A DNA stretch of 63,604 nt from Ruminococcus flavefaciens (GTDB taxonomy: Bacteria > Bacillota > Clostridia > Oscillospirales > Ruminococcaceae), in NCBI GenBank assembly GCA_902762855.1, contig CACWPR010000002.1:1-63604 (forward strand), given 5' to 3'. A program made the translations under genes and the position numbers. Under the pieces are notes generated by a model. It was not told the DNA's origin, ran no database searches, and saw only the letters and a program-made list of their open reading frames with translations. Within the stretch, counting starts at the first letter, position 1; each line of letters opens with the position of its first letter. Shown here piece by piece: positions 12,298-28,322 of this stretch.

Positions 12298-13080
12298 TTA
12301 TTTTTCCGGTACCTTCATTTTCAGAACTGACCGTGCGTAGGCGATAGTCTGACGAAGCTGGCCGTCCTTGTCAATTCCTGCAAGTCTCAGCTTGTGAGCG
12401 TAGGAGAGCAGCTCCTCATTTGCCGGCACCCCTGCATCCTCAAGGTCATTTGCAGTCATGAACGGACGTGACATTATCCTCCGGAAGTCCTCGTACCTCT
12501 CCATGAGAAAAGGCTCTGTGTCGGCACATTGCGGCAATTTTCCAAGGCCGTCACAGAGGGCGAGCTGTATCAGGTCGAATGGCTCCACAGAGGAATCGAA
12601 GAGCTTGTTGGTCTTTTTCAGCTTTGACCTTGCCCGTGCCATGGTGTTAGGTTCCATGTGGAGCTCCGTCATATTCAGGACGTATTTTGTGAGCTCAGGG
12701 CCTGCACTGAGACGTTCGAGGAATGTCTGCACAAGGGGAAGTCCCTCGGTCTCATGGTTGTATGAGTGTACGGTCCCGTCCTCAGATACCGAGGTGCTGA
12801 CTGCCTTTCCGAAGTCGTGACAGAGGGCGGATAGCATGAATCCAAGGGGAAATTTAGCTATGTCACGGCGCTTTGAAGCCTCGTCAAGTGCCATCATCGT
12901 ATGTGTCCAGGTGTCGCCTTCAATGTGGTACAGAATGTTCTGCGGAACTCCTATAAGAGCCTTCAGCTCCGGGAACCATTGGTCAAGTGAATCTGTTCTG
13001 CGGAGTTCCTCAAAGTATTCCGAGGGATTGCCATGAGTCAGAAGCACCTCAGTAAGCTCCTCCATTTTATTACCGGGCAT
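12298..13080 (-). CDS. HD-domain phosphohydrolase, related to the HD part of tRNA nucleotidyltransferases
   Basis: A 260-residue protein. A metal-binding HD signature ALCHDFGKAVSTS is visible (about residue 85), with an earlier His in YHIEGDTWTHTMMAL and a later HNHET-like segment YNHETEGLPL, the order seen in HD domains fused to CCA-adding enzymes that act on 2',3'-cyclic phosphate or 3'-phosphate RNA ends. ATG 13080 is preceded by AGAGGAGG and lies 11 nt inside the end of the WYL gene, so it is coupled to it. Divergent rtcB uses 2',3'-cyclic phosphate ends, so an RNA-end-processing role is plausible but inferred. Confidence 0.75.
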   Translation of the reverse strand: MPGNKMEELTEVLLTHGNPSEYFEELRRTDSLDQWFPELKALIGVPQNILYHIEGDTWTHTMMALDEASKRRDIAKFPLGFMLSALCHDFGKAVSTSVSEDGTVHSYNHETEGLPLVQTFLERLSAGPELTKYVLNMTELHMEPNTMARARSKLKKTNKLFDSSVEPFDLIQLALCDGLGKLPQCADTEPFLMERYEDFRRIMSRPFMTANDLEDAGVPANEELLSYAHKLRLAGIDKDGQLRQTIAYARSVLKMKVPEK

Positions 13081-14071
13081 GACCGTCCTCCTCTCTTTGC
13101 TCCGCAAGCAGCTCTGCCTGCCGTTTGATGCGCTGTCTGGCCTGTTCACGGAGTCCAGGAGGCCCCATTATCTCTATGACCGGACCAAAGCTCAGCAGCC
13201 GTATAAGCAGTTCAGTCTCGTCAAACTGGTCGTACCATAGCTCAACAGTGTACTCGCCGGACTCAAGGTCACGGACTGTATGCTTTTCGTAGGAGGCAAA
13301 TTCCAGCATGAAACGCTCCACACCATTGCGCTGGGGAGTTACCCTTATCACCGCAGGCTCGCTGCACTTCCGGCTTGAAAAGTAGTCGTCTACAGATACC
13401 GGAGTCCGGAAGGTACGGCCGGTATCCACTATTTTTGTCAAGCGGCCTATGTTGATGATGCCGCTGCTCTTTATCCTGTCATTCCGCAGCAGATAGCAGT
13501 ATACCCGGAACCTGCCGTTTTTAGGGGAGTATTCCATTTTCAGCAGCACGAACTTTCCGCTTATATGGTTGCCGTGGCCGGAGGTGAACTCTGCAAATAC
13601 GATCTTCCGTGTCTTTACAGCGTCAAGTGCGGTCCGGAAATTTCTGATGTAATCCTCACTGAGAAAGTCATCACCGTCGGAAAAACGGTCAGTTATCCGG
13701 AATTGCTCTTTGGTGTAAAGAGGGCGGACATCCGAGAGTCTCTCATCAAGCTGTGAGAGCGTATCGCTGTTCATGAACAGTCTTATCCGTGGGTCTGACA
13801 GCTTTGCTTTCAGCCACATCTTCTGCAGCTTTGTCAGCACCTTCACAGGTGCGTTTTTTGTTATCCGGCGCAGCTTGCCCTCAGGAGTGCGGGTGAAAAG
13901 TCCCCAGTCCTCACTGCCGGGGATGAGCTTCTGAGGCAGAAAGAGAACGGAGTCCCGGAAGCCCTCTCTCTGTACTGTTTCACGGACCGTCTTTTCGTCT
14001 GTGACTTCATTTCCCAGCAGCTTTGCCGCTATCCGGAAATATGTGCCGTATATCTCACTGAATATGTTCAT
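13070..14071 (-). CDS. WYL-domain protein without recognisable N-terminal HTH
   Basis: A 333-residue WYL-type protein. The core fold segment is visible as KIVFAEFTSG followed by FRVYCYLLRNDRIKSSGIINIGRL (about residues 175-235) and a C-terminal VELWYDQFDETELLIRLLSFGP. WYL domains sense nucleic-acid or nucleotide ligands and usually regulate DNA-damage or defence genes. No clear winged helix precedes it, so it may act with the HTH-WYL partner encoded just upstream, which it overlaps by 17 nt. ATG 14071 is preferred (GGTGA 6 nt upstream) over 14080. Confidence 0.7.
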   Translation of the reverse strand: MNIFSEIYGTYFRIAAKLLGNEVTDEKTVRETVQREGFRDSVLFLPQKLIPGSEDWGLFTRTPEGKLRRITKNAPVKVLTKLQKMWLKAKLSDPRIRLFMNSDTLSQLDERLSDVRPLYTKEQFRITDRFSDGDDFLSEDYIRNFRTALDAVKTRKIVFAEFTSGHGNHISGKFVLLKMEYSPKNGRFRVYCYLLRNDRIKSSGIINIGRLTKIVDTGRTFRTPVSVDDYFSSRKCSEPAVIRVTPQRNGVERFMLEFASYEKHTVRDLESGEYTVELWYDQFDETELLIRLLSFGPVIEIMGPPGLREQARQRIKRQAELLAEQREEDGHAR

Positions 14072-15329
14072 CGTCATCACCGCCGTACATTCTGTTCATT
14101 CGTACAATATCGCTGTAAAAGCGCTCCCGTATGCTATCGGCTCCGCCCTCTATGCCGACTATCCTCCCTATGAAGGTCTTTGCCCAGTGCATTATCTCAT
14201 TTGGGTCAAAGACATCAGCAGTCAGGGTATAGAGGCGTTCACCGGTCTTTTCAAGGGTACAGCACCGTTTTTCACGCTCCAGACGCTCAATGATATAGGG
14301 CTCTTTTTCCACGTCAGCGAAGAATGTTATCTTCATGGGAGTGACGGTGCCGGTGAACCTCCTCATCCCGAAGGACACTCCGAAAACGTGAGACATATTC
14401 TTCAGGAAGGTCTCATGCAGAGCGTCGTAATCCTCATAAATACCGCCCATTTTTGCGTCCTTCATGTAGTCCAGGCGGAACGCCGAGAACCTTTTCAGCT
14501 CCGGGATATATGCAGCAAGATAGCGTCTGCCGGTCTGCACTGATACAAGGAGCTGCATAGGGACTACCTGGTTTTCGCTGTCAGCAGTTTCAGGAGACCT
14601 TCTGCGTTTTTCGGAAAAGGTGCGAAGTGCAAGGTAACGCTTTTCTTCCATGGCGGAAAGTATTTCAGGGAGGAGAATGTCCTCCAGGGTGTGTATCATG
14701 TAGTTATGCTTTATGTAGAACAGGTCATTTTTCAGGCCTGCCGCTTTTAGGATGCTGTTGCCGATAATGCCGAAGGTCCGGGTCTCAGAAAAGAAACGCA
14801 GAGCATCATCAAGACCTTTGAATTTTTTGACAAAGCTCTCTGTACAGTCCTTTGATAGGGAGTAATACAGCGTCTTGCCTTGCTTTTCAGAGCTGATGAT
14901 GCCCTCCTCTGTGTACTCCTTCAGTTTGTTGCGGACAGTCTGCTCATCGAAAAGCTGAGCGTAGTCGTTGTTCAGAAGGTCAACTATCTCTTTGAGCGTC
15001 ATGCTCTGGCCGTCATGGAGGATGTCCGTTATCAGGAAGTGCAGACGGATGTCATTATCAGTGAAGCTCTTGGAGTAATAGGCGCTGTACAGCGGATTTT
15101 CGTGGATATGTCCGCTGTCAACGGATATAGATACGCTCCGTCCACGGAGAGAATCGTCGTAGCGCATAAAGTCGCCCATCCAGCTTTCAACACGGCGTTT
15201 TTCGTCGCCGTAGGTCCTGACGCTCTTGCGGTCAAAATCGCTGCGTACCTTGCAGCCATATATGAAAAAGTCACGGACATAGTCACGGGTCTTACCGAAA
15301 TTTTTTATAAGCTCTGAAAATCCGGCCAT
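14055..15329 (-). CDS. WYL-domain transcriptional regulator with winged HTH
   Basis: A 424-residue protein. Residues about 85-165 form a winged helix (LHFLITDILHDGQS, LKEIVDLLNND, TVRNKLKEYTEEGII, SSEKQGKTLYYSLSKD). A WYL-like sensor follows (VPMQLLVSVQTGRRYLAAYI and a later TFFADVEKEPYIIERLEREK, WCX-like). It is the first gene of the minus-strand WYL-WYL-HD operon and is divergent from rtcB across 137 nt, the usual place for a regulator of an RNA-repair locus. AAGGAAGGAG precedes the ATG. Direct control of rtcB is inference. Confidence 0.75.
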   Translation of the reverse strand: MAGFSELIKNFGKTRDYVRDFFIYGCKVRSDFDRKSVRTYGDEKRRVESWMGDFMRYDDSLRGRSVSISVDSGHIHENPLYSAYYSKSFTDNDIRLHFLITDILHDGQSMTLKEIVDLLNNDYAQLFDEQTVRNKLKEYTEEGIISSEKQGKTLYYSLSKDCTESFVKKFKGLDDALRFFSETRTFGIIGNSILKAAGLKNDLFYIKHNYMIHTLEDILLPEILSAMEEKRYLALRTFSEKRRRSPETADSENQVVPMQLLVSVQTGRRYLAAYIPELKRFSAFRLDYMKDAKMGGIYEDYDALHETFLKNMSHVFGVSFGMRRFTGTVTPMKITFFADVEKEPYIIERLEREKRCCTLEKTGERLYTLTADVFDPNEIMHWAKTFIGRIVGIEGGADSIRERFYSDIVRMNRMYGGDDDEHIQ

Positions 15330-15355
15330 ATTTTTCAGCTCCTTCCTTCATTTAT

Positions 15356-15384
15356 AGTTTAACAGAAAAAATGTGTTTTTGCAA
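15356..15384 (-). promoter_or_regulatory. Promoter of the WYL-WYL-HD operon
   Basis: On the minus strand TTGCAA (15384-15379), 17 nt, TAAACT (15361-15356). The start would lie about 20 nt before the ATG. On the other strand rtcB has a TATACT (15439-15444) but no good -35, which would suit activation by a regulator. Confidence 0.55.
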
Positions 15385-15466
15385 TACGGTCCGGAGTGTG
15401 TGCAGAAAAAAATATATGATTATTTCCGTTTCCTGTGTTATACTTGAGTCAAGCTAAAGGAAAGAA

Positions 15467-16711
15467 GTGAAGAAAATGTTCGTACATTACAAGAAGAATG
15501 AAAATATGCTCCCCATAAAGATATGGCAGACCGATGCGGAGGCTGTGGGGGAGAAGTGCATAGAGCAGGCTGAACACCTTGCAAAGCTGCCGTTTGCTCA
15601 CAAGTGGATAGCTCTTATGCCTGATACCCACGCAGGCAAGGGAATGCCTATCGGCGGAGTTATCGCCTGCGAGGACGTTGTTATCCCGAATGCAGTCGGA
15701 GTTGATATTGGCTGCGGAATGGCTTACATTCAGACAAATATCCCTGTTGCAGTGCTCCGTGAGACTATTACCGGCAGCGGAAATCTTGTGCAGACTATCT
15801 GCGGTGACATCCTGAGAAATATCCCTACAGGATTTGCACATTACAAGACTCCTCAGCAGTCGGAAGTACTTGACAGGGCAAAGGCAGAAATGGGACGCTA
15901 TGAAGCTGACAAGGAACTCATCCCCCAGATAGAGGAGGGCTACTTCCAGGCAGGTACTCTCGGCGGAGGAAATCATTTCATAGAGCTCCAGCAGGACGAT
16001 AACGGAATGTGCGGCATAATGCTCCACTCCGGAAGCCGTCACTTCGGAAATATAGTGGGACAGTACTTCAATAAAATAGCCCATGAGCTCAACGACAAGT
16101 GGTTCTCTCAGGTACCCGGAGAGTGGAATCTCCCATTTCTTCCGGTGGATACTGATGAGGGAAAGAGATACCTTCTGTGGATGCAGCTCTGCATGGATTT
16201 TGCCTATGAGAACCGGAAAATAATGCTGGAAAAGGTAAAGGCTATTTTCTTTAAGCACGTTGAAAAGCACACAGGCATCGTTCCTGAGTTTTCAGGTGAG
16301 ATAAACTGCCACCATAACTATGCGGCTCTCGAAAATCACTTCGGAAAGAATGTCTGGGTACACAGAAAGGGCGCTATCCGTGCCCGTGAAGGTGACATGG
16401 GAATTATTCCCGGAGCTATGGGCTCATACAGCTACATAGTTCGTGGAAAGGGCTGCCCCGACAGCTTTATGTCCTCATCCCACGGGGCAGGCAGAGCCTA
16501 CTCCCGGACTGCTGCACTTGATAAGTTCTCCGTTGAATCTGTAATGGTGGACTTAAAGGAGCAGAATGTGGTCCTTGCAAAGAACAAGAAGTCTGACGTC
16601 GCTGAGGAATCACGGTTCGCATATAAGGACATCAACGATGTCATGTCCAATCAGACTGACCTTACAGAGCCTGTAAAAAGACTCTTCACAGTCGGTGTTA
16701 TAAAGGGTTGA
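15467..16711 (+). CDS. rtcB: RtcB-type RNA ligase
   Basis: A 414-residue protein covering the whole RtcB fold. RtcB joins RNA 2',3'-cyclic phosphate or 3'-phosphate ends to 5'-OH ends through a GMP-histidine intermediate with Mn2+. Visible motifs: MPDTHAGKGMPIGGV, GVDIGCGM (metal Cys), GGGNHFIE, LHSGSRHFG, GAMGSYSYIVRGKG, and SSSHGAGRAYSR with the guanylated His. Start GTG 15467 has AAAGG 6 nt upstream; ATG 15476 is an alternative. About 500 nt separate its stop from the Ro-like gene; that space holds a structured RNA array rather than protein genes. The length is that of the shorter RtcB2-like clade. Confidence 0.96.
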   Translation: MKKMFVHYKKNENMLPIKIWQTDAEAVGEKCIEQAEHLAKLPFAHKWIALMPDTHAGKGMPIGGVIACEDVVIPNAVGVDIGCGMAYIQTNIPVAVLRETITGSGNLVQTICGDILRNIPTGFAHYKTPQQSEVLDRAKAEMGRYEADKELIPQIEEGYFQAGTLGGGNHFIELQQDDNGMCGIMLHSGSRHFGNIVGQYFNKIAHELNDKWFSQVPGEWNLPFLPVDTDEGKRYLLWMQLCMDFAYENRKIMLEKVKAIFFKHVEKHTGIVPEFSGEINCHHNYAALENHFGKNVWVHRKGAIRAREGDMGIIPGAMGSYSYIVRGKGCPDSFMSSSHGAGRAYSRTAALDKFSVESVMVDLKEQNVVLAKNKKSDVAEESRFAYKDINDVMSNQTDLTEPVKRLFTVGVIKG

Positions 16712-16714
16712 TAT

Positions 16715-16781
16715 TTCGTCACTGACAGCAGACAGAGGCAGTTCATTCAAGAACGGGTTCAACTCCCAGAAAAGTGACGAG
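16715..16781 (+). ncRNA. RNA module 1 with T-loop-like hairpin
   Basis: Closing helix TTCGTCACT / AGTGACGAG (9 bp, one wobble), ACAGCA at 16725-16730, hairpin GTTC-ATTCAA-GAAC, then GGG-TTCAACT-CCC (16755-16767), whose 7-nt loop matches a tRNA T loop although the stem has only 3 bp. Confidence 0.6.
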
Positions 16782-16784
16782 TTT

Positions 16785-16833
16785 AAGGCACAAACAGCAG
16801 TCAACATTATCCTGTCAAGATAAAACGTGCCTT
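16785..16833 (+). ncRNA. RNA module 2 with anticodon-arm-like hairpin and trailing T run
   Basis: Helix AAGGCAC / GTGCCTT, ACAGCA at 16794-16799, and an inner 5-bp stem TTATC / GATAA with 7-nt loop CTGTCAA, the geometry of an anticodon arm. GTTTTTT follows the 3' strand, so it might also end or attenuate the rtcB transcript. Confidence 0.6.
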
Positions 16834-16838
16834 GTTTT

Positions 16839-16889
16839 TTAGAGTTCACGGCATGACCGGAAGTTATGCCGCTGAACGATCTTCTCTAA
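16839..16889 (+). ncRNA. Spacer hairpin between modules 2 and 4
   Basis: TTAGAG / CTCTAA outer pairs and an inner helix TTCACGGCAT / ATGCCGCTGAA (one bulge) with loop GACCGGAAGTT. It lacks ACAGCA and so is not counted with the six repeated modules; its outer strand overlaps the start of module 4 by 2 nt, so the two may compete. Confidence 0.5.
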
Positions 16890-16942
16890 GACGTGCACTG
16901 CATTTTTTTCATTATTTATTGAAATTATCATTTACACGTCTT
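16888..16942 (+). ncRNA. RNA module 4
   Basis: Perfect 8-bp helix AAGACGTG / CACGTCTT flanked by T and G, variant motif ACTGCA at 16897-16902, and an AT-rich inner hairpin TTTCA / TGAAA. Confidence 0.55.
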
Positions 16943-16951
16943 GTATTCTTT

Positions 16952-17000
16952 AAGGCGCACACAGCAGTTACAGTACATATGGAATTGTATATTGCGTCTT
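16952..17000 (+). ncRNA. RNA module 5
   Basis: Helix AAGGCGCA / TGCGTCTT (8 bp, one wobble), ACAGCA at 16961-16966, inner stem GTACA / TGTAT. Compared with module 2, the A-T pair of the helix is G-C here, a compensatory change. Confidence 0.6.
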
Positions 17001-17009
17001 GTTCGTTCA

Positions 17010-17102
17010 GTCACCATACGGCTCTTACAGCATTATTTCTTGGGACGCAGAGAGCTTTCCTACGGGTCAAAGCACTGTGAAAAAATGAGCCGTGAAGGTG
17101 AC
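17010..17102 (+). ncRNA. RNA module 6, longest closing helix with internal loop
   Basis: GTCACC / GGTGAC, internal loop AT / GAA, then ACGGCTC / GAGCCGT: 13 bp in all, the form of a Ro-binding Y-RNA stem. ACAGCA at 17027-17032 here pairs partly with CTGTGA (17075-17080). An inner hairpin GCTTT / AAAGC encloses ACGGGT. Confidence 0.6.
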
Positions 17103-17115
17103 CGTCATCAAAAAT

Positions 17116-17195
17116 AAGTCAGCAACAGCAAAAAGATAAATGGTTATTGCAGGTCCGAATCCTGCCCTGCGGCAGCGTATGGTAAATGCTGACTT
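17116..17195 (+). ncRNA. RNA module 7 with T-arm-like hairpin, ending just before the Ro-like gene's ribosome site
   Basis: Perfect 9-bp helix AAGTCAGCA / TGCTGACTT, ACAGCA at 17125-17130, and GCAGG-TCCGAAT-CCTGC (17149-17165), a 5-bp stem with 7-nt loop like a tRNA T arm. It is not a full tRNA: no 5' strand matches the bases after the arm. AAAGGAG of the next gene begins 2 nt downstream. An alternative hairpin CAGCGT / ATGCTG (17173-17191) would break the closing helix. Confidence 0.65.
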
Positions 17196-17210
17196 GAAAG
17201 GAGTATCACT

Positions 17211-18680
17211 ATGCTTAACTATTTAAAGAATGAAGCAAATTCAACATATACAGAGAACGGTGCACTGGCTTACCGTTCAACACAGTCTTTCTGCCTGGAT
17301 ATGTTCTTCAAGGCAGGAGCTATGCGTAATTCCTCCGCAAAGGAAATTGCGGACACAGTTGCCCGTGCCTATGCTGAGGACCCCGACAAGACAATGAAGC
17401 TGATATTCTTCGCCCGTGACGCAAGAGGCGGACTGGGTGAGAGACGTTTCTTCCGCATAGCGGTATCTGCTCTCATGGAGCTCGCTCCTGAGGCTGTCCG
17501 CAGAAATCTCGAATTCTTCCCTGAGTACGGCCGTTTTGACGACCTGTTCGTTCTGCTGGGAACTCCTCTTGAAAAGGATGTGGCAGAGATAACTGACACT
17601 CAGCTCCGCTTTGACAAGGCTTCTATGGCCACAGGCGGAAAGGTATCTCTTCTGGCAAAGTGGATGCCCTCAGTTAATACCTCCTCAAAGGAGACACGGA
17701 ATATGGGCAGACATCTTGCAGGACTGCTGGGAATGTCCGAGGCTGAGTACAGAAAGACACTGTCTGCACTCCGCAAGTATGGCGATATCCTGGAGAACCG
17801 CCTCCGTGAGCGTGACTACACTTTCAGATATGAGGTGCAGCCCTCATGCGCTATGTTCAAGTACCGAAAGGCATTCATCCGCAATGACGGAGAGCGCTAC
17901 ACTGAGTTCCTGAATAGGGTAAATTCCGGTGAGACTAAGCTCAATGCAGACCGCCTGTATCCATACGACATAGTCCGCAAGGCTATAGACGGGGATATTT
18001 CTGAGACTGAAAGACTGTCTCTGGACACTGCCTGGAAGTCACTTCCTGACCTGACAGCAGCAAAGGGTGAAAACGCTATTGCAGTTGTTGACGGTTCCGG
18101 TTCAATGTACGGCGGCTGTGGCATACGTCCTATAGATGCGGCTCTGTCCCTGGGCATATACTTTGCAGAACACAATACCGGTGCTTTTGCAAACCACTTC
18201 ATCACCTTCTCTCAGACTCCCCGTCTGGTTGAAATAAAGGGCAGGGACATCGTTGAAAAGGCAAGGTACTGCCGTACCTTTAATGAGATAGCAAACACTG
18301 ACCTGGAAGCAGTTTTCAAGCTGATACTCAAGACTGCTATAAAGAACCATGTCCCTCAGTCTGAGCTGCCTGCAAAGATATACATAATCTCTGATATGCA
18401 GTTCGACTTCTGCGTAACCGGCGGTAATAACGATGTGCTGTTCCATGCGGTCAGAAAGCTCTACCGTCAGTACGGCTACAAGCTGCCTGAGGTGATATTC
18501 TGGAACGTTAACAGCCGTTCAGACGCAATGCCTGTTACTCGCTCCGAGACCGGTGCTGCACTGGTCTCCGGCTACTCTCCTGCGGTATTCGATATGGTGA
18601 TAGGCGGTGAGTGTTCACCTGAGAAGGTCATGGACCATATCCTCTCCTCGGAGAGATACGCCTGCATCACTGCTGTATAA
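17211..18680 (+). CDS. Ro60/TROVE-like vWA protein, DUF2828 type
   Basis: A 489-residue cytoplasmic protein. The N-terminal two thirds is helical with the motif LIFFARDARGGLGERRFFR (64-82) and FPEYGRFDDL (103-112), typical of DUF2828 and similar in layout to the HEAT-like ring of Ro60 proteins. The C-terminal third is a von Willebrand A domain with a complete MIDAS Asp-Gly-Ser-Gly-Ser (294-298) and the downstream ISDMQFDF Asp motif. Ro proteins bind Y RNAs and misfolded RNAs and help exoribonucleases. The gene follows rtcB and an RNA array, the arrangement of bacterial Ro/Y-RNA/RtcB loci. AAAGGAG lies 7 nt before the ATG. The DUF2828 versus TROVE label is from memory of motifs; RNA binding is inference. 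Confidence 0.8.
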   Translation: MLNYLKNEANSTYTENGALAYRSTQSFCLDMFFKAGAMRNSSAKEIADTVARAYAEDPDKTMKLIFFARDARGGLGERRFFRIAVSALMELAPEAVRRNLEFFPEYGRFDDLFVLLGTPLEKDVAEITDTQLRFDKASMATGGKVSLLAKWMPSVNTSSKETRNMGRHLAGLLGMSEAEYRKTLSALRKYGDILENRLRERDYTFRYEVQPSCAMFKYRKAFIRNDGERYTEFLNRVNSGETKLNADRLYPYDIVRKAIDGDISETERLSLDTAWKSLPDLTAAKGENAIAVVDGSGSMYGGCGIRPIDAALSLGIYFAEHNTGAFANHFITFSQTPRLVEIKGRDIVEKARYCRTFNEIANTDLEAVFKLILKTAIKNHVPQSELPAKIYIISDMQFDFCVTGGNNDVLFHAVRKLYRQYGYKLPEVIFWNVNSRSDAMPVTRSETGAALVSGYSPAVFDMVIGGECSPEKVMDHILSSERYACITAV

Positions 18681-18689
18681 GACACGCAA

Positions 18690-18722
18690 AAGGCCTCCTG
18701 TTTTGCAGGAGGTCTTATTATT
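18690..18722 (+). terminator. Rho-independent terminator after the Ro-like gene
   Basis: Stem AAGGCCTCCTG / CAGGAGGTCTT with a short T-rich loop, then TATTATTT. Confidence 0.75.
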
Positions 18723-18791
18723 TCAATTCAAGCCGCATCTCCGCCGTGGACCGGCTCCGGGACTCCCTTGCACTGTCATGTACGAAGTCCT

Positions 18792-18820
18792 TTGACATTT
18801 TACGCTGTTGATGCTATAAT
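18792..18820 (+). promoter_or_regulatory. Perfect-consensus promoter of the ABC-F gene
   Basis: TTGACA (18792-18797), 17 nt, TATAAT (18815-18820). Transcription would start near 18827, after the first possible ATG of the frame (18826), which rules out that start and supports TTG 18880. Confidence 0.88.
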
Positions 18821-18879
18821 AGTCTTTGGCAGACTCTTCAGGCCTGCCTTATCATTTGCGCTTAAAAGGAGCGGTCAGC

Positions 18880-24967: not shown

Positions 24968-25504
24968 ATGTCTGAAAATATTTGTCGTAACTGCGGAGCA
25001 GAGCTTCTTCCCGGAGCTAAATTCTGCTCGAAGTGCAGAGCGGCTGTGGAAGTCCCGGCAGCGGAGACCTGCAGGGCCTGCGGAGCGCAGCTCCTTCCCG
25101 GAGCGAGATTTTGTTCAAAGTGCAGGACCTCAGTGGAAAACTCCGGATACGAGGAAGCTCAGCCTGTGTTATCTATGACAGCGGGCAAGAAAAAGTCCAT
25201 GACAAGGCCTGTCAGCATTATCCTGACAGCGGCCTGCATAGTCCTTGCGACACTTTGCGCTGTTATTATCCCGAAGAGGATAAAGGAGGTCAGTAAGCAG
25301 GAGGAGCCTGAGGAATATATAGTTGCCGGGGACGAGCTCACTGATGAGCAGATAGAAGAATATCAGCGGATAAATGCCGCTGTTGACAATGACACTCTCT
25401 TCGAGGAAGTCACCGAGGGCGAGACTATCATGAATTACGAGGACGCCGTTGGTTACTACGAATGGATGAACCGTGATGAAAGCGAGGTCGATGAAGATGA
25501 CTGA
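24968..25504 (+). CDS. Double zinc-ribbon single-pass membrane protein
   Basis: A 178-residue protein with two near-identical zinc ribbons in the first 60 residues (CRNCGAELLPGAKFCSKC and CRACGAQLLPGARFCSKC), evidently an internal duplication, then one transmembrane helix (about 82-102) and an acidic extracellular tail ending NRDESEVDEDD. ATG 24968 has AAAGGAG 8 nt upstream. The stop overlaps the next gene by 8 nt. The role is unknown; zinc-ribbon membrane proteins of this form are common near large surface proteins. Confidence 0.75.
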   Translation: MSENICRNCGAELLPGAKFCSKCRAAVEVPAAETCRACGAQLLPGARFCSKCRTSVENSGYEEAQPVLSMTAGKKKSMTRPVSIILTAACIVLATLCAVIIPKRIKEVSKQEEPEEYIVAGDELTDEQIEEYQRINAAVDNDTLFEEVTEGETIMNYEDAVGYYEWMNRDESEVDEDD

Positions 25505-28322
25505 AAAACGCTCAGGGAAAAAACTGATCACAGCGCTCATCGCTGTTCTCATCCTGCTGGCATTCCTCTTCACATCTCTTGGCTATCCGGGATTTATGCT
25601 GAAAAAGTTCAGAGCTAAGACTCCTGACCCGGTCATAACCACACCGGAGCAGCTCCTTGAGAGCCTTCCGGACGGAGAGCTGCCTGAGAGGCTTATCCTT
25701 ACGGGAAACAGTGCTCCGTTTACTATAACTCCACAGCCGGGAGTGACCATATCTGCTGAGGAAAATGCCCTTGACACAGACCGGGAGTTCACTCTTACTC
25801 CCTGCGGAGCAGAAAAGGTGCAGGAGCTCAACAGCGTGCTCGATGAAAACAACTGCGGTATGGACCTTGTAAAGCTGTGGGAGCTTGACGCCGGCCTTGC
25901 TGACGACGAGTACCTTCCCGGCACCTATCATGTGGACATCGACCTTGATGAAATAGGTATCTGGGAGGAGAACTACCCGCTGGTGCAGGTATGCCGCATC
26001 GACGATTCCGGCAAGTGGTACGAGTATGCCTCTACTATTGAAAACGGGCATCTGAGTTTTGATTCCGCACAGAATTCCCTTTTGGGAGTCATAGTCATAA
26101 CTTCACTGACAGTCATAGGCGGAGTAGGCATCAACGAGTACGGCTCCGGAGAGTTTCTTTTCGGATTTGATGCTATGAGCTGCTTTGAGAAGGGCGTCGG
26201 AGCAGACAAGTCAACAGACCTGGGAAAAAAGCTGTTCAATCTGAAAATTTCCTATTCCGAGTCAGTGGAGACAGCGAGAGTCAACGTCGCAAGTGCCATA
26301 AAGAGCGTCAAAAAGTCCAAGGCTGCTGACATTGAAAAGCGTACAAATGAGCTGCTGAAGGGAAAATACGGAAATGTGACTTCCGGAGATAAATACGAGG
26401 CTGACAAGGCGCAATATACCATTCAGGCAAGAAACGAGATAGTATACGGCAGTGATGAATACAAAAATGCAGCCGCCGAGCTCAGCCTTGCAATGAAAAA
26501 GGAAGGTCTGAAAATGGACCTTACTGAGCAATTCGGAAAGCTGTGCCTTGATGCATATAATTTTCACAAGGAAGTAACGAAGGTGAAGTGGCCGGAATAT
26601 GTTGTGGACGTCTATCTGAAAAAAGACTATTTCCAGAGCGGAGTCACAGTCAGCACACTGCCTTTCGGACACTGTTATGTTGTTATAAAGGGAGCTCCTC
26701 TGATGACGGGAGTTGATGAGGGCGAGACTCTTATCACCATTATCCACGAACTGCTCCATGTAAGTCAGAGGGAGTACCGCTCAAAGCTCACGGCGAATGT
26801 AAAGTTCGACGAGGCTACCGCACAGATGGTGGAGTTCGACGCATTTGCACATTTCAGTCCCTCCGGAAAGGTCAAGAAACTGGCTACAGAGAATGCCAAC
26901 GACCTGCAATACTACTTCGTGCCGTTTGACTCTAAAAAGACCTACATTGACGGAGTCAAGAAAAATCCCGGAGCAAGTAACGGAGAGCTGGGCTATCCGC
27001 TTTATCATTTCGTTAAATTCATGCAGAACAACTATAACAGCCAGATGTCCTACCCTCAGCTTTTCCAGGTATACAGCGGATGCAGTACACTTGCAGGTTT
27101 TACTGACATAATGAAAGCGGCCTATAATATGGACGATAAGGCTCTGACGGCCGCATACAAGAAATTTGCCAAGGAATATCAGACTCGTTTCTACGGAATG
27201 ACCGCAGGCTGGTATGCAGACCGCTCCAAGGCGGTGGAGTGGGCCATGTCCTCAAAGGGCTTTGACAAGCAGGGTGACCACGCAGTCATAAAGAATCAGG
27301 CCTATCAGTTATTTGTCAGGAGGATATACCCGATAAAGCCGCCGGAGGGAAGAAATCAGGAGGTGAGCGTACTGCTTGCCTACGATGAGAATTACAAGGA
27401 GCTCACAGATTTCGAGATGATACCTGTAGGCAATAAGGACTACATGAATACCAGGCATGGTATAATGTACAAGCCTAAGAATTACTACAGCATGAAGAAC
27501 GTCTACACCCTTGAGATAGACGGAGGCGCTAATACAGAGGACGTCACCAGCGGCTATACAGTATGGACTCTGTTTGCTCCGGAGCCAGTTGGAGAGGTGA
27601 CGGTCAGTGAGGGAATGCTCAATTTCAAACTGCCTGAGAAGTCAGATGCAGCAAAGTCAGGTTACATCGACGGCTACAGAGTAACCATTGACTGTCTTGA
27701 TGACGGCAGAAAGACCGTGAAGTACTACAAAGTCAGCGGCTCAGGGAAGGACATATCACTAAATGCAAAGAATCTCTGCGAAAAGGACACTGACCCTAAG
27801 GAAGCACATTTCAGGATAAGCATATGCGAATACATAAAGGAGGCTAACGGAAGGCGCTCCTTCGGTCCGGAATCAGACCCCATAAACAGCATTGTGGACA
27901 CCATGAACGAGACTCTTGCAGAAATGGGAGCTCAGGACGGTGTTATTACCGTGGCTCTTGGCTGGCAGACTGCCGATGACCTTGACCTCCACGTAGTGAC
28001 TCCGGACGGTTCGGAGATATATTACGGCAACAAGTCAGCCGGCGGAGGTACTCTTGACGTTGATATGCAGGTAAGTGACATTGTGTCCAACCCGGCAGAG
28101 CACATAGTTTTCCCGGCACCTGCGGAGGGTACATATAAAGTAAGCGTCGTTAACTTTACAGACAGAACAGATGGCGTTGATTCTCCCTTTGTTGTGGTGC
28201 TGAAAATAGGTGACCAGATAAAGACCTTTGAACTTACTGTCGGCGGATACAGTACATCTGTATGCTCCTTCACCTACGGTGCGCCGGAAGGTGATGAAAA
28301 GGGGAATGAATATCTTGACTGA
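25497..28322 (+). CDS. Large membrane-anchored protein with HExxH metallopeptidase-like motif and DUF2135-like C-terminal domain
   Basis: A 941-residue protein: N-terminal transmembrane helix (about 9-30), an extracellular region with Gly/Val-rich hydrophobic patch LGVIVITSLTVIGGVGI (about 193-210), then a zinc-peptidase signature TIIHELLHVSQ (about 415-425) with a possible third ligand Glu in FDEATAQM, as in gluzincins. A fibronectin-like region follows near 695-780 and the last 120 residues (ITVALGWQTADDLDLHVV, YYGNKSAGGGTLDVDMQ, GTYKVSVVNF) match the DUF2135/YfaP type. ATG 25497 is preferred because GAGG lies 9 nt upstream. It probably acts on extracellular protein or cell-wall partners; proteolysis is unproved. 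Confidence 0.65.
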   Translation: MTEKRSGKKLITALIAVLILLAFLFTSLGYPGFMLKKFRAKTPDPVITTPEQLLESLPDGELPERLILTGNSAPFTITPQPGVTISAEENALDTDREFTLTPCGAEKVQELNSVLDENNCGMDLVKLWELDAGLADDEYLPGTYHVDIDLDEIGIWEENYPLVQVCRIDDSGKWYEYASTIENGHLSFDSAQNSLLGVIVITSLTVIGGVGINEYGSGEFLFGFDAMSCFEKGVGADKSTDLGKKLFNLKISYSESVETARVNVASAIKSVKKSKAADIEKRTNELLKGKYGNVTSGDKYEADKAQYTIQARNEIVYGSDEYKNAAAELSLAMKKEGLKMDLTEQFGKLCLDAYNFHKEVTKVKWPEYVVDVYLKKDYFQSGVTVSTLPFGHCYVVIKGAPLMTGVDEGETLITIIHELLHVSQREYRSKLTANVKFDEATAQMVEFDAFAHFSPSGKVKKLATENANDLQYYFVPFDSKKTYIDGVKKNPGASNGELGYPLYHFVKFMQNNYNSQMSYPQLFQVYSGCSTLAGFTDIMKAAYNMDDKALTAAYKKFAKEYQTRFYGMTAGWYADRSKAVEWAMSSKGFDKQGDHAVIKNQAYQLFVRRIYPIKPPEGRNQEVSVLLAYDENYKELTDFEMIPVGNKDYMNTRHGIMYKPKNYYSMKNVYTLEIDGGANTEDVTSGYTVWTLFAPEPVGEVTVSEGMLNFKLPEKSDAAKSGYIDGYRVTIDCLDDGRKTVKYYKVSGSGKDISLNAKNLCEKDTDPKEAHFRISICEYIKEANGRRSFGPESDPINSIVDTMNETLAEMGAQDGVITVALGWQTADDLDLHVVTPDGSEIYYGNKSAGGGTLDVDMQVSDIVSNPAEHIVFPAPAEGTYKVSVVNFTDRTDGVDSPFVVVLKIGDQIKTFELTVGGYSTSVCSFTYGAPEGDEKGNEYLD

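Follow-up and report, generated by a model that had tools for sequence, protein, structure and literature searches.

What is encoded in the 499 nucleotides (nt) that separate an RNA ligase gene, rtcB (15467..16711), from a Ro-like gene (17211..18680) in a contig of Ruminococcus flavefaciens (CACWPR010000002.1)? The stretch analysed, here called the window, comprises 63,604 nt of this contig, and a preliminary description had noted six helices between the two genes, each marked by the hexamer ACAGCA or a variant. These six modules are probably tandem Y-RNA-like noncoding RNA domains in an RNA-repair operon, predicted to be bound by the downstream DUF2828 protein through a helix of 7 base pairs (bp) and the ACAGCA motif. 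The tagged RNAs likely form a distinct branch of bacterial Y RNAs and are likely partners of the Ro-like protein, because tagged hairpins accompany its gene in other bacteria and in phages.

Architecture of the array

All six modules follow a common rule: a 7-bp helix, 2 nt, ACAGCA (once ACTGCA), an insert of 27–58 nt, the 3′ strand of the helix, and a G. The motif positions given in the preliminary description (16725, 16794, 16897, 16961, 17027, and 17125) are all right, five of them being ACAGCA and the one at 16897 ACTGCA. The spacing of 0–2 nt after the 5′ strand given there becomes exactly 2 nt in all six under the strict rule; the range arose because linker nucleotides sometimes also pair, so that the helix looks longer. 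Within the interval ACAGCA occurs five times, compared with 0.23 times in 5000 shuffles of 2-base blocks (maximum 3), and complete ACAGCA modules also number five, compared with 0.002 (maximum 1). Beyond the array, the 59 ACAGCA sites on the + strand of the window and the 34 on the - strand yield a single geometric match, at 2477.

The modules all lie on the + strand. In total 105 modules were called in the window and in 19 of the first 20 related loci, the twentieth (L042) being truncated within the gene by a contig end; 94 were in register (6 or 7 pairs, then G) and 11 were dropped. A covariance model, R1, was built from 49 of the 94 (insert ≤46 nt, exact motif), including window modules 1, 2, and 4; its E-values are rough. 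R1 recovers four of the six window modules. Module 1 (16716..16781; R1 E 2.8e-4) contains a T-arm, GGGTTCAACTCCC, at 16755–16767, and module 2 (16785..16834; 46.9 bits) the insert motif TATCCTGTCAAGATAA. Module 3 (16888..16943), which bears the ACTGCA variant, has strict geometry and no R1 match. It is preceded by an untagged + strand hairpin without ACAGCA (16839..16889; fold z-score -4.9). Module 4 (16952..17001) scores 34.9 bits, and module 5 (17018..17094), with a longer insert of the CAGAGAGCTT class and an extra outer helix spanning 17010–17102, scores 28.7 bits. Module 6 (17116..17196) has no R1 match and carries a T-arm, GCAGGTCCGAATCCTGC, at 17149–17165, followed by a capped stem. The T-arms of modules 1 and 6 are a feature absent from the preliminary description.

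No open reading frame (ORF) of ≥100 amino acids (aa) is present in the array, shorter ones not having been examined, and ARAGORN made no tRNA call in it; a coding or tRNA origin was rejected on these two results. Rfam searched to E = 5 gave nothing in the array, its sole, unrelated match lying inside the Ro-like gene. The preliminary observation of the array is confirmed.

The co-varying inner pairs seen earlier are borne out as well. In alignment A1, composed of 49 modules from the window and its relatives, double changes occur at all 7 pairs, in 77 cells compared with 16.7 in shuffles, and 99.7% of 336 cells are paired; shifting the 3′ strand lowers pairing to 30–53%. Since the A1 modules had been selected by pairing, the weight rests on site, permuted-motif, and hexamer controls. 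The strict module scan (perfect 7-bp helix, 2 nt, motif, insert, 3′ strand, G) pre-filters for perfect pairing, and paired percentages obtained with it therefore prove nothing. The controls that bear weight are other hexamers, permuted motifs, shuffles, the antisense strand, and sites outside the array.

Linkage of the modules to the DUF2828 gene in bacteria

The Ro-like gene was found in 22 of 60 genomes searched, including the genome of the window itself. The preliminary description had proposed a covariance model as a check, and R1 at E ≤ 0.01 marks 21 of the 22 carriers, the miss (G016) being cut at a contig end, and none of the 38 genomes without the gene, four of which give matches at E 0.03–0.2. 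Among the ACAGCA sites ≤600 nt upstream of the gene in the first loci, 69 of 94 have a perfect helix followed by G and none a helix without G. Sites located outside this upstream stretch or on the opposite strand (153 in the loci concerned) include one helix with G and six without, and 200 shuffles give 0.5 helix-plus-G modules on average (maximum 3).

The larger bacterial comparison set consists of the best 80 of 138 relatives in named genomes, many of them metagenome-assembled, with titles including R. flavefaciens, R. albus, other Oscillospiraceae, and Anaerocolumna. Homologous loci devoid of helices or ACAGCA, which would have spoken against the array, were not met among them: each of the 80 has at least one strict module ≤1.5 kb away, and 74 have two or more. 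Arrays comprising up to seven modules were seen in the first loci. The proposed tie between the array and the Ro-like gene, and its relation to Y RNAs, is supported; the homologous loci keep both helices and motif. When hexamers are ranked by their occurrence in module geometry, ACAGCA comes first (286 of 458 sites), followed by GCAGCA (20 of 145), and 59 permuted motifs give 0.8 modules on average (maximum 6). Nearly all modules (284 of 285) lie upstream on the sense strand, and one of 155 antisense sites matches.

A survey of 391 genomes of the class detected DUF2828 over the cut-off in 16 and below it in four more. All 16 have modules, by strict geometry with tag variants allowed or by R1, and R1 at E ≤ 0.01 marks 12 of them. 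One of the 16 is the window. In 14 of the 15 newly opened loci over the cut-off modules lie upstream, tag variants allowed; the fifteenth (L121, genome G323), with a homologue of 28% identity, has two modules directly upstream by R1. One of the four genomes below the cut-off, G236, was opened and contains neither gene nor module.

The constant partner of the modules is the Ro-like gene, and rtcB is not obligatory. The preliminary description had placed the array beside rtcB, as is the case in the window; RtcB is encoded in the examined flanks of 44 of the 80 bacterial loci (38 of the 59 with 2.5 kb available on both sides), and it was not found in the examined flanks of 80 viral loci. The Ruminococcus-like setting is likewise correct for the window and too narrow for the family, which extends to other Clostridia and to phages.

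Modules in phages and the CAGCAA variant

Matches to the Ro-like protein were found in 682 of 50,697 phage records, 677 of them covering ≥80% of the protein. Modules were detected by R1 or the strict scan in 16 of the first 19 phage and plasmid loci opened. The viral comparison set comprises the best 80 of at least 548 relatives in viral contigs. Some loci are near-copies (L204/L209, L205/L324, and L265/L266), so that counts are partly non-independent. Strict ACAGCA modules occur in 44 of the 80 viral loci (115 of 275 sites); a looser count of 58 (linker 0–3, 2.5 kb) lacks a separate control and was left out of the evidence.

In 18 further viral loci CAGCAA takes the place of ACAGCA in identical geometry. 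Altogether 68 of 348 viral CAGCAA sites, in 19 loci, are of this kind (e.g., L265 2856–2990 and L275 2863–2991), and these 68 are also the maximum reached by any permuted motif in viral loci. In bacterial genomes CAGCAA is at background (3 of 319 sites). A shifted register of ACAGCA was rejected as the explanation, the preceding nucleotide being mostly T (51 of 68) or G (12), with A in four cases and C in one; CAGCAA is accordingly treated as a separate variant. A protein tree of 86 distinct sequences (76 viral and 10 bacterial), built with a quick method, shows one change of tag, with the 17 CAGCAA rows all in a single clade of 20 (SH-aLRT 100) whose other three rows are tagless.

In several phage loci (L205, L211, L212, L215, L216, and L220) the DUF2828 gene sits among tRNA genes, and Listeria phage P100 (L205) also has genes for an RNA ligase and a tRNA splicing ligase nearby. 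No near match to the P100 gene was found in E. coli genomes.

tRNA-like inserts

By a rule of 5 bp and a tRNA-type 7-nt loop, T-arms are present in 48 of 294 bacterial inserts, compared with 0.2 in shuffles, and in 19 of 147 viral inserts, compared with 0.16. The bacterial T-arms are distributed over 43 of the 80 loci, the other 37 having none by this rule. Recurring insert types, counted as patterns ≤1.5 kb upstream in the bacterial loci, include the module 1 type (27 loci), the motif of module 2 (11), and the T-arm type of module 6 (35).

The 685 geometric matches in 195 loci include 129 inserts of ≥70 nt, which were scanned for permuted cores. Sixteen of them, compared with 0.07 in shuffles, have the order T-arm, acceptor 3′ strand, loop, acceptor 5′ strand, 1–2 nt, and D-arm with GG. 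These 16 inserts are circularly permuted tRNA cores in which the anticodon arm is replaced by the tagged helix. Fifteen are viral, phage, or plasmid and one is bacterial (L185, Anaerocolumna); those of L204 and L209 are copies. A tRNA-like insert in normal, unpermuted order, with an anticodon-arm-like hairpin recognized by eye, was observed in a tagged module of genome G343 (L332 2943–3052), and the 3.9-kb contig that bears it has no Ro-like ORF.

The Ro-like protein

The Ro-like gene (17211..18680, + strand) encodes 489 aa. At E ≤ 0.001 Pfam assigns to the protein DUF2828 (PF11443, E 1.6e-33) and the vWA-like domain DUF7788 (PF25043), and no other family; PHROG 850 (phrog_850), annotated as "RNA-binding protein," matches at 3.8e-135. 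PADLOC reports no defence family for this protein or for RtcB. The protein is predicted to fold as a Ro60-type ring, composed of HEAT-like repeats, with a vWA domain, i.e., the Ro60/TROVE fold. The preliminary description had taken the neighbour for a DUF2828/TROVE gene; its DUF2828 part is confirmed, together with DUF7788, and TROVE is recovered in the predicted fold and not in the sequence, there being no Pfam match to TROVE (PF05731), for which a search of genome G000 was also empty.

Comparison with known Y RNAs

Chen et al. in 2014 reportedly listed more than 250 bacterial and phage species in which likely Y RNAs, at least one of them tRNA-like in each species, are encoded near Ro60. Three features of bacterial Y RNAs can be compared with the array. 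The 5′ and 3′ ends of each module pair into a closing helix. A tRNA-like domain in each locus has a partial counterpart: T-arms are present in modules 1 and 6 of the window and in the 43 bacterial loci mentioned above, but by the 5-bp rule in none of the other 37, and 15 of the 16 permuted cores are from phage, plasmid, or viral loci. The Ro60-family neighbour is present as a predicted fold, but the protein is DUF2828/DUF7788 by sequence.

The bacterial Y RNA YrlA is presented as a tRNA mimic bound by Rsr that tethers PNPase, its stem binding Rsr and its tRNA-like part PNPase (PMC8394870, available part). YrlA (RF02553) and the modules share a position beside a Ro-type gene, a terminal closing helix, and rtcB in many operons, and the order of T-arm, capped acceptor stem, and D-arm in the YrlA consensus is that of the 16 permuted modules. 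However, the consensus lacks ACAGCA and has a different, interrupted basal helix in place of the tagged 7-bp helix, whereas the modules occur in arrays, have mostly inserts that are not tRNA-like, and are linked to DUF2828 and not to TROVE. Membership in the YrlA family was rejected, with the tested modules below the 69-bit gathering score and nothing in the window region up to E = 5. In five phage loci the best score was 44.9 bits (L211:3631–3754), and the permuted modules in L204, L214, and L219 all went unreported at E ≤ 0.5. Across 101 genomes of the phylum RF02553 gives about 27–41 bits widely (maximum 40.8), with none over the cut-off; these sub-threshold matches are taken for neighbouring tRNA genes and were not used as proof. 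Of six TROVE-linked control loci of the phylum, four have YrlA-like matches, and the strict scan found no sense-strand tagged module in them.

The Salmonella rsr-yrlBA-rtcBA RNA-repair operon unites a Ro protein, a Y RNA, and RtcB (PMC7790460, available part). The window shares with it a Ro-type protein, a Y-like RNA, RtcB (upstream and on the same strand), and a divergent regulator. It differs in that its two divergent genes encode WYL/WCX proteins and not RtcR, that the Ro-type protein is DUF2828 and not a TROVE-family Rsr, and that the RNA is a tandem tagged array.

Some of the phage RNAs may have been recorded before. Y RNAs near Ro60 are reported to include those of mycobacteriophages (PMC12282133, available part), earlier Y RNA work may already cover part of the phage set, and the tRNA-like modules of phages UPIE and DyoEdafos may be among previously reported phage Y RNAs. 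Listeria phage CKA15 has three ACAGCA modules at 25,289–25,552 of its record, directly upstream of the DUF2828-type gene CKA15_055. The sole transcription data located come from this phage, for which three very highly transcribed noncoding regions were described ≤2 kb upstream of CKA15_055 on the same strand, with Y RNAs suggested for this DUF2828 member, and its protein was detected in purified virions (20 peptides, 57.1% coverage); the available part of the article names no motif and gives no coordinates for the second and third regions (PMC12282133). The most transcribed region, 26,236–26,727 (OR088597.1; L324 4477–4968), contains no ACAGCA module and could encode a structured RNA of its own, ~490 nt long, next to the same Ro-like gene. 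No literature naming the ACAGCA motif was found; the central Y RNA papers were outside the search, and absence from print is not claimed.

Possible function and alternative readings

If the modules are RNA partners of the Ro-like protein, the DUF2828 ring would dock on the helix and ACAGCA, and the insert would be an effector arm tethering or gating the Ro ring. A single rtcB-array-ro transcript would be cut into separate RNAs. By analogy with YrlA, several interchangeable adapters for one ring protein might then help to repair or degrade damaged RNA; RtcB would be the ligase of the same operon and the WYL proteins its likely switch.

A number of observations weigh against this reading. Sequence gives no TROVE placement for the DUF2828 protein, its sequence profile matches none of the Ro chains in the PDB, and PDB sequence searches returned nothing convincing. 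Modules were not detected by R1 or the strict scan in Vibrio phage Va3, Fusobacterium phage phiKSUM, and Aeromonas phage avDM12-TAAL, and 18 of the 80 viral loci have neither ACAGCA nor CAGCAA. The single change of tag in the protein tree fits plain inheritance as well as it fits reading of the tag by the protein. By the 5-bp rule 246 of the 294 bacterial inserts lack a T-arm, and tRNA mimicry therefore explains part of the inserts only. R1 matches at E ≤ 0.01 also occur away from the gene in the carriers G012 (three, at a contig end), G027, and G002 (one each), and in 7 of the 375 class genomes without DUF2828 over the cut-off. Two of these seven, G343 and G352, have real-looking arrays near contig ends with no Ro-like ORF in the available DNA; the other five have single matches. 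The matches of G012 form a second tagged module set (L103 228–515), in addition to the set at its Ro-like gene on another contig.

A further such point is that module 6 ends 14 nt before the ATG of the Ro-like gene, which suits a role in cis. The array would then be a leader of the rtcB-ro mRNA, with hairpins bound by the Ro-like protein, which would in this way repress or stabilise its own message. Bacterial modules lie upstream on the coding strand, and the last of them is ≤25 nt from the gene in 25 of the 80 loci, but the distance is larger in the other 55 (median of all 45 nt, maximum 570 nt). In mycobacteriophages UPIE and DyoEdafos, Staphylococcus phage 6ec, Escherichia phage EC6 (Felixounavirus), and Klebsiella phage KP13-26 the modules are downstream of the gene; in L108 and L112 an rtcB gene stands between array and DUF2828 gene. 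Several copies and permuted tRNA cores also exceed the needs of an operator, and a cis-acting leader is considered rather unlikely.

Quite improbable is a role of the modules as decoys or sponges, i.e., as tRNA-like baits that would occupy tRNA-cutting toxins or the nucleases of host defence and would only be stabilised by the Ro-like protein. The T-arms and permuted tRNA cores speak for it, several opened phage loci sit among tRNA genes, and the role of a competitive inhibitor has been floated for YrlA (PMC7790460, available part). However, the anticodon arm, which is the target of anticodon nucleases, is the part that is replaced, and most inserts are not tRNA-like. CRISPR-like guide RNAs, with helix and ACAGCA as repeat and inserts as spacers, would share the tandem alternation of constant and variable parts and can be practically dismissed, as insert types recur across species (35, 27, and 11 of 80 loci for the module 6, 1, and 2 types) and a Pfam scan of six neighbouring proteins found no adaptation gene. 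A MazF-type ACA cleavage site was also considered as a possible meaning of the motif.

For the DUF2828 protein and its putative RNA partners a broader proposal may be made tentatively. They could constitute a modular ribonucleoprotein platform apart from Ro60/YrlA, in which one ring protein and one docking tag are combined with interchangeable effector RNAs (tRNA-core mimics and other folds) in Clostridia and phages, for RNA repair and for resistance to tRNA-cutting host defences. Protein lineage and tag change together, as with CAGCAA in one phage clade, so that on this proposal every such RNA could be found in sequence. DUF2828 is an unnamed family, and the papers listed in a search for this term are, by title, all on plants. 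The shared tag turns a Ro-like protein of unknown ligand into a direct binding question and is a marker for noncoding RNAs beside the DUF2828 gene in phages, e.g., EC6 and P100. With as many as seven RNA modules in parallel at one Ro-type gene, effector parts also become comparable.

Neighbouring genes and signals

The rtcB gene, upstream of the array on the same (+) strand, matches PF01139 at E 7e-107. A second type of RtcB, 27–32% identical to that of the window, adjoins DUF2828 in L107, L108, L112, L116, L117, L119, and L120, either downstream of the DUF2828 gene or, in L108 and L112, between array and gene. Divergent from rtcB, on the - strand, are two genes for regulators: a WYL-domain protein (14055..15329; PADLOC WYL 2.8e-9, Pfam WYL just under the cut-off), with a homologue in 58 of the 80 bacterial loci, and a WYL/WCX protein (13070..14080; PF25583 8e-6, PADLOC WYL 7e-10), with a homologue in 52.

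A consensus scan, in which the number of terminator-like sites was near the shuffle mean, placed a hairpin of this type after the Ro-like gene (18690..18716, + strand) and none on the + strand between rtcB and the Ro-like gene. A promoter scan of 15200–18850 gave two promoter-like sites (shuffle mean 4.1), neither of them before rtcB or the array. A sigma-70 type promoter-like site with a perfect 12/12 match, and with TG before the second hexamer, is found at 18792–18820, before an ABC-type ATPase ORF that starts at 18826.
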